A stretch of DNA of 64,000 bases, taken from positions 1 through 64,000 of the forward strand of contig NZ_CABFJY010000004.1 in the NCBI RefSeq assembly GCF_901687125.1, written 5' to 3'. The position numbers and the translations under genes are program-made. Positions 19,508 through 51,714 of this stretch are shown here, piece by piece. Each line of letters begins with the position of its first letter. The stretch's first letter is position 1. The notes beneath the pieces were generated by a model. The model searched no databases, had not been told where the DNA came from, and saw nothing but the letters and a program-made list of their open reading frames with translations. This DNA is from Actinobacillus vicugnae (GTDB taxonomy: Bacteria > Pseudomonadota > Gammaproteobacteria > Enterobacterales > Pasteurellaceae).

Positions 19508-19565
19508 ATAAGCGGTCAAATGCTGTGAATTTTTTGCAAAAATTTAACCAAATTTGGCCGCTTGT
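19508..19565. repeat. Inverted uptake-sequence pair downstream of nth
   Basis: AAGCGGTCAAAT and ATTTGGCCGCTTGT flank about 30 bases with the internal TTTTTTGCAAAAAATT; T-rich tail. Probable terminator of the yfcA-nth transcript. Confidence 0.65.
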
Positions 19566-19694: not shown

Positions 19695-20999
19695 ATGCCG
19701 ACTCAGAATTTACTGACAGCTAAAGATGAACGTATTGCGATTGTATCTGGGCTTAGAACGCCATTTGCTCGCCAAGACACAGGCTTTAAAGATGCGTATG
19801 CCACCAGCCTTGGTACAATGGTGACCAATGAATTACTTAGCCGTACCTCCATTGAACGAAATGAAATTGAGCAACTGGTTTTTGGTCAAGTCATCCAACA
19901 ACCTGATATTCCCAATCCTGCTCGAGAAATTGCAATCGCATTAAATATGTCTCATATGCAATCTTATAGTATTAGTAGTTCTTGTTTATCTGGCTTACAG
20001 GCAATCGCCAATGTAGCGGGTAGTATTGTAAGCGGTTCGATTTCTGCGGGAATAGCAGGAGGTGCCGACTCCATTTCAAACGCACCATTAAGTATTAGCC
20101 CACGTGTTATCTATAATTTCAAATCTATTTTTGCAGCGGAGACACTGGACGAAAAATATCGTCGTTTTCGCCAATTCTCTTGGCGTGATTTCAAACCACA
20201 TAGTGTAAACCTGAAAGATTTCACCACCCAAATGTCAGTGGCAGAAGTTTCAGAACAAATGGCACAACAATACAATATTAGCCGATCGGATCAAGATGAA
20301 TACGCTCGCCTTTCCAACCGAAAAGCTGCCGATGCGTGGAAAATCGGTTTGTTAAAAGAAGAAGTGATGCCTTCTTTCCCTAGCCCGTATAAGGACTTTG
20401 TCGTTTCTGACACGCTGATATCTGCGGCTACTCGTTCACGTTATTACCAACGTTTCTCCCCTATTGTCAATAAAGAGTATGCCACCGTAACAGAAGCGAA
20501 TATGCCACAACCTGTAGATGGTGCGGCTGCGGTATTACTGATGAATGAAAGTAAAGCAAAAGCACTTGGGCTTGCACCGCTTGGCTATATTCGTAGTTAT
20601 TCAATTACAGGTAATGATATTTGGCAAGATATGTTTGCAGGTGCAACCATTGCGAGTGCGCAAGCGCTCGACCGTGCAGAACTGCAATTACAAGATATGA
20701 GCTTTATTGATATTCATGAATCATCCGCCAGCCAAATGCTCGCTAATATTCAATTTTTTGAATCCAATGAATTTGCAAAAAAATATCTAAACCGCACCGC
20801 TTGTTTGGGCAAAATTGATGTAGATAAATTGAATCATTTAGGGGGTTCTATTGCATTTGGCAACCCACGTGCGGTCACCAGTTTGCGTACGATTATCCAA
20901 TCACTTTATGCCCTAAAACGTCAAGGTGGCGGATTAGCGTTGGTTGCGTCCAGTGGTTTAGGTGGCTTAGGTGCTGCAATGGTTTTAGAAAGCGAATAA
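19695..20999 (+). CDS. fadI: FadI-like acetyl-CoA acyltransferase homologue with substituted catalytic residues
   Basis: A 434-residue thiolase-fold protein closest to FadI, which cleaves 3-ketoacyl-CoA in anaerobic beta-oxidation. The N-terminal half has RIAIVSGLRTPFARQDTGFK and the nucleophile-type Cys97 in SSSCLSGLQA. His341 (IDIHESSA) corresponds to the HEAFA motif. However, the usual GHP histidine is Asn390 (AFGNPRAVTS), and the second catalytic Cys of TACAAGG is Ser420 (VASSGLGGLG). With both base residues lost, normal thiolysis is doubtful; a non-catalytic or altered role is possible. AAAGGAA precedes the ATG at 19695. It lies 10 bases before fadJ, forming a fadI-fadJ-ydgA transcript. 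Confidence 0.8.
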   Translation: MPTQNLLTAKDERIAIVSGLRTPFARQDTGFKDAYATSLGTMVTNELLSRTSIERNEIEQLVFGQVIQQPDIPNPAREIAIALNMSHMQSYSISSSCLSGLQAIANVAGSIVSGSISAGIAGGADSISNAPLSISPRVIYNFKSIFAAETLDEKYRRFRQFSWRDFKPHSVNLKDFTTQMSVAEVSEQMAQQYNISRSDQDEYARLSNRKAADAWKIGLLKEEVMPSFPSPYKDFVVSDTLISAATRSRYYQRFSPIVNKEYATVTEANMPQPVDGAAAVLLMNESKAKALGLAPLGYIRSYSITGNDIWQDMFAGATIASAQALDRAELQLQDMSFIDIHESSASQMLANIQFFESNEFAKKYLNRTACLGKIDVDKLNHLGGSIAFGNPRAVTSLRTIIQSLYALKRQGGGLALVASSGLGGLGAAMVLESE

Positions 21000-21009
21000 G
21001 GAATTGAGG

Positions 21010-23130
21010 ATGATTGAACAACAAGCACAAACACCTGCATTTCAAGTAGAAATTGATGAAAATCGTATTGCGATTATTCGTATTCAAACCACCGATCAAG
21101 ATGCCAACTGGCTACCTGAAACTTTTGTGAGTGAACTGCGTAGCGTAATTGGTAGTGTGATCTATCAACAAGCACGTGGCGTCATTTTCACTTCTGCGCG
21201 CACTCGTAATTTTATTCAGGGCTTCAAACCTAGTCTGTTAAAAGCGCAATCTCCTGAACAGCTCAAAGCCTTTTCGCAAGAAGCACAAGCTGTGATGCGA
21301 GAAATTAACACGCTCAAAATGCCTGTTATTGCTGCTATTGACGGTAATTGTTTCGGAATTGGTTTAGAGCTTGCCTTAGCCTGTGATTACCGTGTCGCAA
21401 GCGATGAAAACTATACACAATTTGCAATGCCACAAGTTCGTTCTGGTTTATTGCCATTTGCTGGTGGAACACAACGTTTACCACGTTTAATCGGCTTGCA
21501 AAACGCTACTCCACTTTTACTGTTTGGTAACAAAATTACTGCAGAACAAGCACATAAGTTTGCATTAATTGATAAATTAGTGCCAGCCGCTCGTCTTTTT
21601 GATACGGCTTATCAGCTGTTGTTGAATAATAAAGTGCAAAAAATTGATCATAAACGACCGCTTACCTTATTCAAAAAGCTTCGCAAACAGTTAGAAGGCA
21701 ATACGCTCTTCCGTAATAAATTTTTAGATCGTACTGAAAATTTGGTGTGGCTAAAAACCTTTGGTAACTACCCTGCGGTCGCTCGCTTAATTGAATTGCT
21801 AAAAGAACCGCATTTCAAAGCAGGCTTAACATTAGAACAAGCTGCATTTGCAGAGCTATTCCATACTGAAACTTCTAAAGTGCTAATCGAGTTGAAAAAA
21901 ACTGAGCGTGCGATGAAAAATAAATATCGCATTCGTGGTAATGTACGCGATGTGTCTCAAGTGAGCGTGCTTGGCTCAGGCTATATGGGCGCAGGAATCG
22001 CCTATTTAACTGCAAATAATGCGCAAATTCCTGTTCGTATTAAAGATATTCATCCATCTGAAATTCGTAAAGCATTACGTACGAGTTTTGAACTGATGCA
22101 AAAAGCCGTAGATACAAAGCGACTAAATCACGGTGAAATGATCCAACGGATGAATTTGATCACGGGTGGCGAACGCTTAGTTGCTGCAAAATCAACTGAT
22201 TTTATTATTGAAGCGGTCTATGAAGATCTCAAACTTAAACAACGTATGTTGCAAGAAAGCGAGCAGTATTATGACGAACACGCTATTTTCGCAACCAATA
22301 CTTCTACTTTTGCGATTAAAGATATCGCCTCTGTAGCACAACGCCCTGAAAATGTGATTGGTTTCCACTATTTTAGCCCTGTGGTAAAACAAAAAATGGT
22401 CGAAATCATTCCGCATGAAACGACTTGTGAACACACTATCGCTACCGCAATCCATTTTGCGATTCAGCAAGGCAAAGTACCATTATTAGTGGCAGATAAA
22501 CAAGGATTCTTTATCAATCGAATCCTAACCCCACTTTTACTAGAAGCAATTCAATGTTTGATTGATGGTGAAGCAATTGAATTTATCGACCGCTCATTAC
22601 AAGAATTTGGCTTCCAATTAGGCCCACTGGCGATGATTGATGAAATGGGGCTAGATGTGATTGCAAAATCAAACCCTGCGCTGGTACGTGAGTTAGGACA
22701 GCGTTTTATGTTGCCTGAAAGGGTTGATTTGTTGATCCGCAATGAACGCAAAGGTTGTAAAAATAAACGTGGTTTCTATATGTATGATCGTTTCGGTGAA
22801 CGTCTACAAGAAGATAAAAGTATCTATCATGTAATGGAAACTATTGCGCATAATGATCTTGAATCAGAACAAATCGCTCGCCGTTGTATTTTACGTATGA
22901 TCAACGAAGCTGCATGGTGCTTACAAGACAATGTGATTCAATCAATCGACGAGGGTAATGTTGCCTCAGTACTCGGTGCAGGATTCCCTGAATTTAGAGG
23001 TGGGATTTACGCTTATATAGAGAAAATCGGTGCGAAAAAAATTGTTAAACAGCTACTCCTACATTCAAAATTATATGGTGCACGCTTTGAGCCATGTGAA
23101 TGGTTAGTACAACAAGCAGAACAAGTTTAA
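21010..23130 (+). CDS. fadJ: FadJ-like multifunctional fatty-acid oxidation protein, hydratase site altered
   Basis: A 706-residue fusion of an N-terminal crotonase (enoyl-CoA hydratase, about 1-190) and a C-terminal 3-hydroxyacyl-CoA dehydrogenase, as in FadJ/FadB. In the crotonase, Glu120 (FGIGLELALACDYR) is kept but the second catalytic Glu of the LPE motif is Gln142 (FAMPQVRSGLLPFAGGTQRLP). In the dehydrogenase, the NAD loop VLGSGYMGAGIAYL, the catalytic His of GFHYFSPV and the following MVEIIP glutamate are all kept. So hydration is doubtful while dehydrogenase activity is plausible. I use the ATG at 21010 with GAGG just upstream. It follows fadI and precedes ydgA by 23 bases. Confidence 0.82.
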   Translation: MIEQQAQTPAFQVEIDENRIAIIRIQTTDQDANWLPETFVSELRSVIGSVIYQQARGVIFTSARTRNFIQGFKPSLLKAQSPEQLKAFSQEAQAVMREINTLKMPVIAAIDGNCFGIGLELALACDYRVASDENYTQFAMPQVRSGLLPFAGGTQRLPRLIGLQNATPLLLFGNKITAEQAHKFALIDKLVPAARLFDTAYQLLLNNKVQKIDHKRPLTLFKKLRKQLEGNTLFRNKFLDRTENLVWLKTFGNYPAVARLIELLKEPHFKAGLTLEQAAFAELFHTETSKVLIELKKTERAMKNKYRIRGNVRDVSQVSVLGSGYMGAGIAYLTANNAQIPVRIKDIHPSEIRKALRTSFELMQKAVDTKRLNHGEMIQRMNLITGGERLVAAKSTDFIIEAVYEDLKLKQRMLQESEQYYDEHAIFATNTSTFAIKDIASVAQRPENVIGFHYFSPVVKQKMVEIIPHETTCEHTIATAIHFAIQQGKVPLLVADKQGFFINRILTPLLLEAIQCLIDGEAIEFIDRSLQEFGFQLGPLAMIDEMGLDVIAKSNPALVRELGQRFMLPERVDLLIRNERKGCKNKRGFYMYDRFGERLQEDKSIYHVMETIAHNDLESEQIARRCILRMINEAAWCLQDNVIQSIDEGNVASVLGAGFPEFRGGIYAYIEKIGAKKIVKQLLLHSKLYGARFEPCEWLVQQAEQV

Positions 23131-23153: not shown

Positions 23154-24566
23154 ATGAAAAAATCAACCATTGCACTTTCAGTGGTTGCCGTATTAGCAGC
23201 AATCACCACGGGTGGCGCCTATTACACAGGCAATCAAATTGAACAACGTTACCCTGAACTGATTGCAAAAGCTAATACGGGTTTAAAAGTATTAAATGCC
23301 TATGATGTCAATGCACAAATTGAGGAAATAAAACTTACTAAAGGGTTATTTAGCTCAGATGTGGAATATGATTTAAAAGTGCAAACCAAAGAGCAAACTT
23401 TCACGCTAAAAGGTCATGATAAACTTTATCATGGTCCATTACCGCTCAATCGCTTAATCAAAGGCAATTTAGCACCTATGTTATTAAGCGCTGAAACGCA
23501 AATTTCGACACTTGATGAAAAAGTGAAAGCTTACTTTACCGATAGCAATGTGCTTTCAGCAACCACTCATACCAGTTATCGTGGTGATGTGTTAGGTAAT
23601 GTTACGATTAACCCATTTAAATCGAAAACGATCGAAGCCTCAAAAATTTATTTTGAAGGCGACTACACTGGCTTAGGTAAACAAAAGCTACAAACAGACT
23701 CGCTTAAATTACAAAATGGTAACGAGACGATTGCGCTAACAGGTTTAAATTACCAAGCTAATTACCAAACCAATCAAAATTACCCTGCAATAAAAGGCCT
23801 TGGCGATTATCAATTTGCACTGAAAAAACTCACCATTACCTCTGAGAATTGCCCTATTTTCAATTTAAATGAACTACGTTCTAAAGGTAACAGCAACATT
23901 GCCAACGACCGTGTGCTTAGTAGCACCGATTTAACCTTTAAAATGGACGGTAACAACGGTAGCGCAAATGCAAAACTTGGCCAAATGCATTTTGATATGC
24001 AGGCAGATCTGGATGCCAAATCGTTTAATGAATTCATGGTGTTATCTGAAAATTTTGATGAAAAAAATCCAGAATTTGAGCAACAACTTCATACTGCTTT
24101 AACTCGCTTGCTGACCCAATCTGCTCAGTTAAAAGTGAAGGAATTATCACTAGAAAATAGTAAAGGGAAAAATCGTTTTGCGCTCAACTTAGATTTGAAT
24201 AAGTTTGATATTGCACAGGTTTCACAATTAAGCTCAGTCGAACAAGTGCTGAAAATCTTTAAGCCCTCTAGTCTAAATTTAGATTTAAATTTAGCCACAA
24301 CTGAAGAGTTTATCGCAAAATGGTTAACGATTGTGCCAGACCAAAATTATTTGGGTAACCCTGAAGAAAATGCCAAAAGAATTGTGCAACAACTTGCGTC
24401 CATTGCAAAACAATCTCAACTTGCTAGCGTAGATGCGGAAAATGTGAAACTGGCATTAAATATTGAGAATGGAAAAGTCAATTTAAATGGCAGAACACTT
24501 TCTGAATCTGAACTACAAATGATACTTTGGGCACTTGTACTCAGTATAAGTGGTTTAGTCAGATAA
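23154..24566 (+). CDS. ydgA: YdgA-family (DUF945) envelope protein
   Basis: A 470-residue protein of the YdgA/DUF945 family, function not established. It begins with a signal-anchor (KKSTIALSVVAVLAAITTGGAYYTGNQIEQRYPEL), where the 'YpeL' after the membrane segment is typical of the family, followed by a soluble, probably periplasmic, repetitive beta-rich body of AsmA-like flavour. It ends with a hydrophobic stretch (QMILWALVLSISGLV). AAAAGGAGATAGCC precedes the ATG, 23 bases after fadJ, so it is likely in the same transcript; whether that link has meaning is unknown. An inverted uptake-sequence pair closes the unit. Confidence 0.82.
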   Translation: MKKSTIALSVVAVLAAITTGGAYYTGNQIEQRYPELIAKANTGLKVLNAYDVNAQIEEIKLTKGLFSSDVEYDLKVQTKEQTFTLKGHDKLYHGPLPLNRLIKGNLAPMLLSAETQISTLDEKVKAYFTDSNVLSATTHTSYRGDVLGNVTINPFKSKTIEASKIYFEGDYTGLGKQKLQTDSLKLQNGNETIALTGLNYQANYQTNQNYPAIKGLGDYQFALKKLTITSENCPIFNLNELRSKGNSNIANDRVLSSTDLTFKMDGNNGSANAKLGQMHFDMQADLDAKSFNEFMVLSENFDEKNPEFEQQLHTALTRLLTQSAQLKVKELSLENSKGKNRFALNLDLNKFDIAQVSQLSSVEQVLKIFKPSSLNLDLNLATTEEFIAKWLTIVPDQNYLGNPEENAKRIVQQLASIAKQSQLASVDAENVKLALNIENGKVNLNGRTLSESELQMILWALVLSISGLVR

Positions 24567-50028: not shown

Positions 50029-51714
50029 TTATGCGTTTTGTACTTTTGCTAACTCTTCATCTCGCAATACACGACGAAGAATTTTTCCGACATTACTCTT
50101 CGGCAATTCATCACGAAATTCAATTTCACGAGGAATTTTATAACCTGTCAAATATTGGCGACAATAATTACGTAACTCTTCACGCGTTAAGCTTTCATCT
50201 TTTTTAGTAACAAAAATTTTGATTGCTTCACCAGACGCTTTACTTGGTACCCCAATAGCAACAACTTCATTTACTTTTGGATTATGTGCAATTACGTCTT
50301 CAATTTCATTCGGGTAGACGTTAAATCCTGACACAATGATCATGTCTTTTTTACGATCAACAATACGTAAGTTAAGATCTTCGCCCATCACAACAATATC
50401 ACCCGTTGCCATCCAGCCATCTTTCAACACTTCTGCGGTATCCTCTGGGCGCTGCCAATAACCTTTCATTACTTGCGGACCTTTTACCCACAATTCTCCA
50501 CGCTCTCCTATTGGAACGTCATTACCTTCATCATCTACGATACGAATATCTGTATTTGGTACAGGAATGCCGATTGAACCTGAATATTCCGTTGAGTCCG
50601 AACGTGTTGCGGCAATTAAAGGCGAGCATTCTGTCATACCATAACCTTCAATAATATGGCTACCTGTTAATTCATGCCAACGTTTTGCAACCGCTGATTG
50701 GATCGCGGCTCCACCGCCAACACTCAATTTTAGATTTGAGAAATCAACATCTTTCAGATTTTCATTATTCAATAATGCATTAAACAATGTATTTACGCCA
50801 GTTAATGCAACAAAGCGATATTTTTTCAGTTCTTTAACAAAACCTGGAATATCACGAGGATTGGTAATTAATAACCCTGTTACACCAAGTTCAATAAATA
50901 GCAAACAGTTTACTGATAGCGCAAATACATGATAAAGCGGTAACGGAATCACTGCGATTCGTTCACGAGTACCACGCAATAAAGGCTCTGCAACCCATTT
51001 TGCTTGTAATACATTGGCAATCACGCTACCGTGCGTCAGCATTGCACCTTTTGCAACGCCCGTTGTACCACCTGTATATTGTAAAAATGCGAGATCGTCT
51101 TTATAAATGCTTGGTTTTACATATTGGCGCTGTTTACCAATACTCAACGCTTCACGGAAACTAACCGCGTGCGGTAATTTATATTTAGGCACCAGTTTTT
51201 TCACATATTTCACGATAAAGTTTACCAATGTGCGCTTACCAAAAGAAAGCTGATCTCCCATACGGGTTAAGATCACGTGCTTCACACTTGTATCAAACAC
51301 GACTTTTTCTAGTGTTGCCGCAAAATTTGACACAACCACAATCGCTTTAGCACCACTATCATTTAATTGATGTTCCAGCTCTCTTGGCGTATAAAGTGGA
51401 TTTACATTCACAACCACCAATCCTGCACGTAATGCACCGAATAATGCAATCGGATATTGCAATAAATTAGGCATCATCAAGGCAATTCGCTCGCCTTTTT
51501 CTAGGCGTAATTCATTCTGTAAATAAGCAGCAAATGCTCGGCTACGCTCTTCTAATTTACGAAATGTTAATACCTTGCCCATATTGATATAAGCAGGCAT
51601 ATCTGGATGTCTGCGAACAGCTGACTCTAACATTTCAAGTAAAGATTCATACTGATTAACATCAATGGTTTGAGCTGAACCTTCTGGGTAATTTTTTAGC
51701 CAAATTTTATCCAT
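50029..51714 (-). CDS. fadD: Long-chain fatty acid-CoA ligase
   Basis: Activates fatty acids to acyl-CoA with ATP at the inner membrane. The 561 residues match FadD: ATP/AMP signature [14 protein letters not shown] near 213-226, [12 protein letters not shown] near 355, the TGD motif [13 protein letters not shown], and the FACS motif [23 protein letters not shown] near 450, with the C-terminal catalytic Lys in [11 protein letters not shown]. It starts 10 bases after the rseC stop. The product could feed phospholipid synthesis, since the beta-oxidation genes of this window look impaired. Confidence 0.95.

Follow-up and report, generated by a model that had tools for sequence, protein, structure and literature searches.

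Two of the three active sites of the FadIJ complex, those of the thiolase and the hydratase, are rebuilt in the same 49 Pasteurellaceae genomes, including that of Actinobacillus vicugnae, and the third, that of the dehydrogenase, is kept in most. The fold, the partner, and the gene order are already known as those of FadIJ, and the chemistry is very probably different. We are confident that the complex is not a working β-oxidation enzyme. Our preferred reading is an ancient repurposing in which FadIJ was rebuilt for FabH-like condensation through an acyl-cysteine and for 3-ketoacyl reduction; we infer this chemistry rather than observe it, and assign the full statement a probability of roughly 0.38.

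The window, meaning the whole stretch of 64,000 nucleotides that was analyzed, includes the genes below. A TTG start at 19554 could give a longer fadI-like open reading frame.

19695..20999, + strand: fadI-like gene (434 aa; ATG at 19695, stop at 20999)
21010..23130, + strand: fadJ-like gene, the next gene after the fadI-like gene, with hydratase and dehydrogenase domains
23154..24566, + strand: DUF945 gene immediately after fadJ; this genome has no other DUF945 match
50029..51714, − strand: AMP-binding protein (PF00501, 561 aa)

Catalytic residues of the FadI-like and FadJ-like proteins

The FadI-like protein matches the thiolase N (PF00108, E 9.4e-47) and thiolase C (PF02803, E 4e-19) domains of Pfam and nothing else at E 0.001, including no KASIII domain. 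In a sequence search against solved structures, its best match is E. coli FadI (8bnu, E 3.5e-120). The AlphaFold model (mean pLDDT 84.7) also has E. coli FadI as its top structural match (8bnr; Z 54.8, rmsd 4.9, 430 aligned); the beta subunit of the human trifunctional protein (6dv2; Z 54.6, rmsd 4.7, 410 aligned) ties with it, and these two stand above other thiolases. Thiolases head and fill the best 50 structural matches (Z ≥ 51.2), so that the absence of KASIII among the matches listed is uninformative. Crystals of the His348Asn and His348Ala forms of Zoogloea thiolase also match the model. The protein passes the general NCBIfam model for acetyl-CoA C-acyltransferases (TIGR01930; 301 bits versus a cut-off of 240.55), and it misses the FadI equivalog cut-offs (484.1 versus 560 for NF006516 and 451.5 versus 711.55 for TIGR02446).

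FadI of E. coli K-12 (NC_000913) served as the reference for residue numbering. Alignment reveals that the nucleophile is kept (E. coli Cys99, here Cys97), as are the histidine of the HEAF motif (E. coli His343, here His341) and the adjoining Glu342. The GHP histidine (His392 in E. coli) is replaced by Asn390, and the second cysteine (Cys422 in E. coli) by Ser420. A sequence-only reading of this DNA had pointed to these two losses and to the retention of Cys97 and His341, and the alignment bears it out for the family as well as for the window. Indeed, the GHP histidine is absent from all 49 family homologs and the second cysteine from 46, and Cys97 and His341 are present in every one. Three further features go beyond that reading: the HEAF motif has become HESS, the hydratase site of FadJ is changed, and the changes are common to all family homologs found. 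Moreover, Ser344, Arg392, and Leu422 replace canonical Phe, Phe, and Ala.

The hydratase uses two catalytic glutamates and an oxyanion-hole glycine, and the dehydrogenase catalytic Ser, His, Glu, and Asn residues, as described in the available portions of PMC5715344 and, for the hydratase, of PMC11301753. The hydratase site of the window FadJ retains its first glutamate (Glu120), and carries Gln142 in place of the second and Ile117 in place of the glycine. Across the family, the first glutamate is kept in 49 of 49 sequences and the second is glutamine in 49 of 49, and the position of E. coli Gly115, three residues before the first glutamate, is occupied by V, L, I, F, or M throughout. The dehydrogenase of the window protein is complete (Ser432, His453, Glu465, Asn503, and the NAD glycine loop). 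Its His, its Glu, and three NAD-loop glycines are present in all 49 sequences, Asn in 46, and Ser in 42. One genus (g40, 3 of the 49) has Thr for Asn and Asn for Ser, and another (g10, 4 of the 49) has Leu for Ser, which weakens the case for a reductase step in those genera. The FadJ-like protein, whose AlphaFold model has a mean pLDDT of 85.4, misses the NCBIfam FadJ cut-offs (709.4 versus 869 and 669.2 versus 968.45).

Distribution, origin, and selection

A search of 140 Pasteurellaceae genomes at E 1e-40 recovered the fadI-like gene from 49 genomes in 24 of 43 genera, at 51 to 95% identity to the window copy, and gave no match in the other 91 genomes. Five loci came from a scan of named genomes, among them those of Actinobacillus capsulatus and A. 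ureae, where fadI is 94% identical. In all 49 loci, fadJ follows fadI. The GHP position is Asn in 42 sequences, Ser in seven, and His in none, and the second-cysteine position is Ser in 39, Gly in seven, and Cys in three. Invariant across the 49 are Cys97, His341, and Glu342, as well as Ser344, Pro391, Arg392, and Leu422 (a 36-row alignment gave the same picture), and the counterpart of HEAF is HE[ST]S.

Beyond the family, the canonical residues are present in 21 of 21 FadI sequences, comprising E. coli FadI and 20 loci from ten families of the order. The comparison with FadI and Pasteurellaceae homologs that the sequence-only reading had named as a check finds the changes common to the family and in none of the canonical sequences, a contrast well beyond chance. 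In a second set, the 17 best-scoring loci outside the family (six of the 20 loci just mentioned come from genomes that are also in this set), the first three FadI sites are canonical in all 17 and the full second-cysteine motif in 16, the match at L102 ending just after that cysteine; the FadJ hydratase motifs of these loci are canonical too. An order-wide search of 394 genomes with a profile built from 36 Pasteurellaceae rows placed 13 Pasteurellaceae matches at or above 722.9 bits and all others at or below 538.4 bits, a gap that arises partly by construction because the profile was made from Pasteurellaceae sequences. In a class-wide search of 369 genomes, only the copy in the window passes E 1e-160. 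Within the genomes sampled, the remodeled FadI is confined to Pasteurellaceae. In a tree built by a quick method from all columns, including the changed ones, a branch with SH-aLRT 100 separates all 49 FadI sequences from the others; the tree has three long end branches. This topology is consistent with a single origin of the remodeling, the 49 forming one clade.

Because many dS values are near saturation, the dN/dS estimates (NG86) are rough: 0.010 to 0.051 for fadI and 0.019 to 0.083 for fadJ, with 18 of 20 pairs yielding an estimate in each case, and 0.015 to 0.125 for canonical FadI pairs (6 of 8). The fadI value lies below the fadJ value in 17 of the 17 pairs with both. Both genes are under strong purifying selection. 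The sequence-only reading had suggested that selection keeps the protein and had named dN/dS as a check, and the fadI values agree with it. Reading frames are free of stops in 48 of 49 fadI genes and 49 of 49 fadJ genes. The one interrupted gene (L067) is in a genome of the same genus as the window (G001; 96% complete, 5% contamination), where an in-frame TGA splits fadI, and fadJ is open and constrained.

We give almost no credence to fadI being a relic in decay after the loss of β-oxidation. The 91 genomes without a match at E 1e-40 and the TGA in G001 are what such a history might leave behind, but the low dN/dS contradicts decay in the genomes compared, and the intact frames and conserved active-site columns also speak against it.

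In FadI, the fixed replacements are concentrated near the catalytic residues. It has 14 columns that are fixed (≥95%) in both groups with different residues. Seven of them are among the 44 columns that lie at most five residues from one of the four catalytic residues, and seven among the other 385 (Fisher p 1.5e-4, uncorrected for phylogeny). For FadJ, columns whose canonical residue is absent from all 49 sequences cluster around the hydratase site (9 of 36 versus 29 of 652, p 6e-5), and the enrichment of fixed new residues near that site is not significant (2 of 36 versus 13 of 652, p 0.18). The eight best-scoring other thiolases of the family, four of them in FadIJ genomes, have the NEAF, GHP, and CxG motifs intact in 8 of 8, with the frames picked via the NEAF/HEAF motif. 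Thus, no general erosion of thiolases is seen.

These patterns also bear on the idea of a FadI-like pseudoenzyme, whose role would be structural or regulatory: it would hold FadJ in the complex, and FadJ would serve as a 3-hydroxyacyl-CoA dehydrogenase only. MsTLP1, which has a thiolase fold without thiolase catalytic residues (PMC3406046, in the part available), offers a precedent, and the family-wide losses at the GHP and second-cysteine positions, the dehydrogenase His, Glu, and NAD loop intact in every FadJ, and the unvarying placement of fadJ behind fadI all agree with such a role. However, a conserved nucleophile would be superfluous for a mere scaffold, and Cys97, His341, and Glu342 are invariant together with four further site residues; in addition, fadI has the lower dN/dS in all 17 pairs with values for both genes. 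We regard the pseudoenzyme as rather unlikely, though as a serious rival to the repurposing. The sequence-only reading had listed a scaffold for FadJ among its options, which is possible but explains the conserved remodeling less well.

Metabolic setting and gene neighborhood

Acyl-CoA dehydrogenases of PF00441 were found in 8 of the 140 family genomes, all in genera that lack FadIJ, and the 49 genomes with FadIJ have none; the search did recover the E. coli control, and enzymes outside PF00441 would escape it. In genera g18 and g21 (G057-G060, G065, G066, and G075), where FadIJ is absent, acyl-CoA dehydrogenase-like open frames of 378 aa are present. With PF00441 acyl-CoA dehydrogenases missing from every genome that has FadIJ, β-oxidation is unlikely in these hosts. 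Judged by sequence, a classical cycle in these genomes would lack its first step, and would have to run steps 2 and 4 with some catalytic residues missing.

Of the 49 genomes, 34, that of the window included, have no PF02803 match besides the remodeled FadI, and 15 have at least one more. Five genomes (G087, G097, G099, G100, and G101) have two or three high-scoring thiolases each, which is unusual among the 140, and those of G097 are counted besides its remodeled FadI. It is possible that these extra thiolases belong to a short-chain fatty acid pathway.

Could FadI nevertheless be a slow but real β-oxidation thiolase with unusual residues? In PcaF, the His356Ala mutant (the GHP histidine) retains 30% activity, the His356Ala/Cys386Ala mutant (the GHP histidine and the second cysteine) 5%, and a mutant changed at the GHP histidine and the nucleophile cysteine 7%, according to the available part of PMC7337054. 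The first two values, the cysteine present at position 420 in three of the 49 sequences, the many genomes with no other PF02803 protein, and the general acyltransferase cut-off that the protein passes are compatible with slow turnover. Against it stand the lack of PF00441 proteins in all 49 genomes, the glutamine that replaces the second hydratase glutamate throughout, and the PcaF double mutant itself, whose 5% may be background because the nucleophile mutant still reads 7%. Upstream of fadI, moreover, consensus sites for FNR, CRP, FadR, ArcA, NarP, PurR, and Fur do not rise above base-shuffled controls at the 49 loci, in a region comprising 30 bp of fadI and as much as 250 bp before the gene (152 bases at one locus). 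We consider a slow thiolase quite improbable. The doubt that the sequence-only reading cast on ordinary thiolysis is supported. Among its three options, outright inactivity is not borne out, given the 30% retained by the PcaF GHP mutant, and another acyl-CoA reaction fits best because the substitutions that surround the conserved Cys-His pair do not vary.

E. coli fadIJ is a backup to fadBA without an obvious mutant phenotype of its own, as stated in the part of PMC9329746 available. A table in the accessible part of PMC1805755 has fadIJ absent in four columns, taken here as its Pasteurellaceae genomes.

Potential partners were sought in the same genomes. In the window, the AMP-binding protein at 50029..51714, which we take to be FadD-like, is a possible source of acyl-CoA. 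As fadIJ-specific partners, AMP-binding proteins and FabH-type proteins are uninformative, each being present in 140 of 140 genomes. One genome (G047) keeps fadIJ and has no FabH match, which raised the prospect that fadIJ replaces FabH there. FabD is essential. Its match is missing from G047 as well, so an assembly hole is likelier than a replacement, the sister genome G046 having both and G047 being a single contig.

The gene after fadJ encodes DUF945 in 28 of the 49 loci, within a main clade of 31 genomes. Irrespective of fadIJ, 135 of 140 genomes have a member of the DUF945 family, which is not specific as a functional partner; the gene is probably only a neighbor. In three genera of other clades (11 genomes), a class I SAM methyltransferase is directly downstream of fadJ:

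L045:1846-2481, − strand: SAM methyltransferase gene, with further loci at L041, L043, L044, L046, L047, L048, L050, L052, L053, and L054

A search of the 140 genomes at E 1e-10 recovers exactly those 11 methyltransferases, always behind fadJ, and this is the only gene found to be tied specifically to fadIJ. Two of the sequences were scanned and gave weak matches to PmtA, UbiE, CpaM, and BioC models, all below cut-off. The methyltransferase dN/dS of 0.06 to 0.57 (five pairs) indicates weaker constraint than for fadI. In G085 (L038:6684-8501, + strand), a ubiD-like frame lies a few bases behind fadIJ, with a ubiG-like frame after it, as judged by eye, which suggests a joint transcript of fadIJ with ubiquinone genes in that genome.

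Proposed chemistry and comparison with known systems

In the thiolase superfamily, two histidines, or an asparagine and a histidine, aid the nucleophilic cysteine and form the enolate oxyanion hole, and in Zoogloea thiolase the second cysteine acts as the base (PMC3406046, available part). A profile alignment places Cys97, His341, and Asn390 opposite Cys112, His244, and Asn274 of FabH, with a local 'GN' motif, at a probability of only 3.6% and in full only in local mode, global mode giving none. We take these three FabH residues to be its catalytic ones, and FabH can do without a base, since its donor is decarboxylated. A likeness to FabH is thereby weakly suggested, drawing partly on superfamily equivalences and on this low-probability alignment. 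A Cys-His-Asn site without a base would suit thiolysis less well than acyl transfer or a condensation with decarboxylation, and the fixed Arg392 and the lost Phe of HEAF suggest a changed substrate.

Under the repurposing that we prefer, Cys97 would still accept an acyl group from acyl-CoA, and His341 and Asn390 would form a FabH/KASIII-type Cys-His-Asn site that stabilizes an enolate. That enolate would be generated without the lost cysteine base, most simply if a malonyl donor is decarboxylated. FadJ would then receive the 3-ketoacyl-CoA so formed, and its dehydrogenase would reduce this to 3-hydroxyacyl-CoA. Dehydration of this intermediate would not take place at the hydratase site, which has one glutamate and a bulky oxyanion-hole residue, and we propose for that reason that the complex releases a 3-hydroxyacyl product. 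The methyltransferase linked to fadIJ in three genera may use this product, or a later compound, as its substrate. Against a condensation are the seven FadI sequences with Ser rather than Asn at position 390 and the three with Cys at position 420; in addition, no malonyl-specific feature was identified in FadIJ.

A more specific version holds that a degradative thiolase became a FabH-like, malonyl-using ketoacyl-CoA synthase, and the complex a CoA-based machine for elongation and 3-ketoacyl reduction, yielding a family-specific lipid or metabolite that is methylated in three genera. We regard this version as somewhat unlikely.

Another possibility is that the FadI-like protein is an acyltransferase or thioesterase that passes the acyl group from Cys97 to another nucleophile, with no C-C bond made or broken. 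Retention of the nucleophile alongside loss of the second cysteine, the base for C-C bond formation, in 46 of the 49 sequences is what such an enzyme would display, and the methyltransferase linked to fadIJ in 11 genomes hints at a product that is a small molecule or a lipid. A study of the Zoogloea Cys378Ser enzyme that PMC3406046 cites, going by its title, reportedly found altered partitioning of the acetyl-enzyme intermediate, which is in line with acyl transfer. This alternative leaves unexplained both the choice of Asn or Ser in place of the GHP histidine and the retention of the dehydrogenase, and we consider it unlikely, though a serious rival.

Pasteurellaceae include important colonizers of animals and humans. 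Since FadI and FadJ are the closest named families, annotation and metabolic models may well assign β-oxidation to these hosts, an assignment that both the residues and the lack of an acyl-CoA dehydrogenase speak against. Among the literature matches listed, which took in few subscription papers, none describes changed catalytic residues in FadI or FadJ of Pasteurellaceae. If our preferred reading is correct, FadIJ would amount to a natural experiment in which a thiolase was converted to a different condensing or acyl-transfer enzyme and both subunits were altered. The limits of thiolase active-site rewiring would become directly testable, and the genes would point to a new CoA-thioester pathway in Pasteurellaceae. 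If the malonyl-using synthase is real, a natural biosynthetic route would lie hidden under a β-oxidation annotation across the family.

Among known systems, FabH/KASIII may resemble the remodeled FadI in the Cys-His-Asn residues, which align at the low probability given above, and like 46 of the 49 it has no second catalytic cysteine. It differs in that the FadI-like protein has no KASIII Pfam match, is nearest to FadI in sequence, adjoins a FadJ-type gene, and has Ser for Asn in seven of the 49. CHS and OleA are Cys-His-Asn condensing enzymes as well.

Laboratory mutants provide a second comparison. The change from the GHP histidine to asparagine that was engineered in Zoogloea thiolase His348Asn (PDB 2wl5, by its title) is natural in Pasteurellaceae FadI, and PcaF His356Ala is altered at the same position (PMC7337054, in part). 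Unlike in these mutants, the GHP change in Pasteurellaceae is joined by further fixed changes and is kept by selection. Mycobacterial TLP1 likewise combines a thiolase fold with changed fingerprints, but it has no thiolase catalytic residues, is monomeric, and is 15% identical to Zoogloea thiolase (PMC3406046, part available), whereas Pasteurellaceae FadI keeps its Cys and His.

The closest known system is E. coli FadI-FadJ (8bnr/8bnu/6ysv), the second, 'anaerobic' trifunctional enzyme, which is the best solved-structure sequence match of both proteins. The two systems share their gene order, the nucleophilic cysteine, the HE pair, and the dehydrogenase residues. They differ in that the window proteins fall below the NCBIfam FadI and FadJ cut-offs, and in that the GHP histidine, the HEAF phenylalanine, the second hydratase glutamate, and the oxyanion-hole glycine are replaced in all 49 Pasteurellaceae pairs, and the second cysteine in 46.
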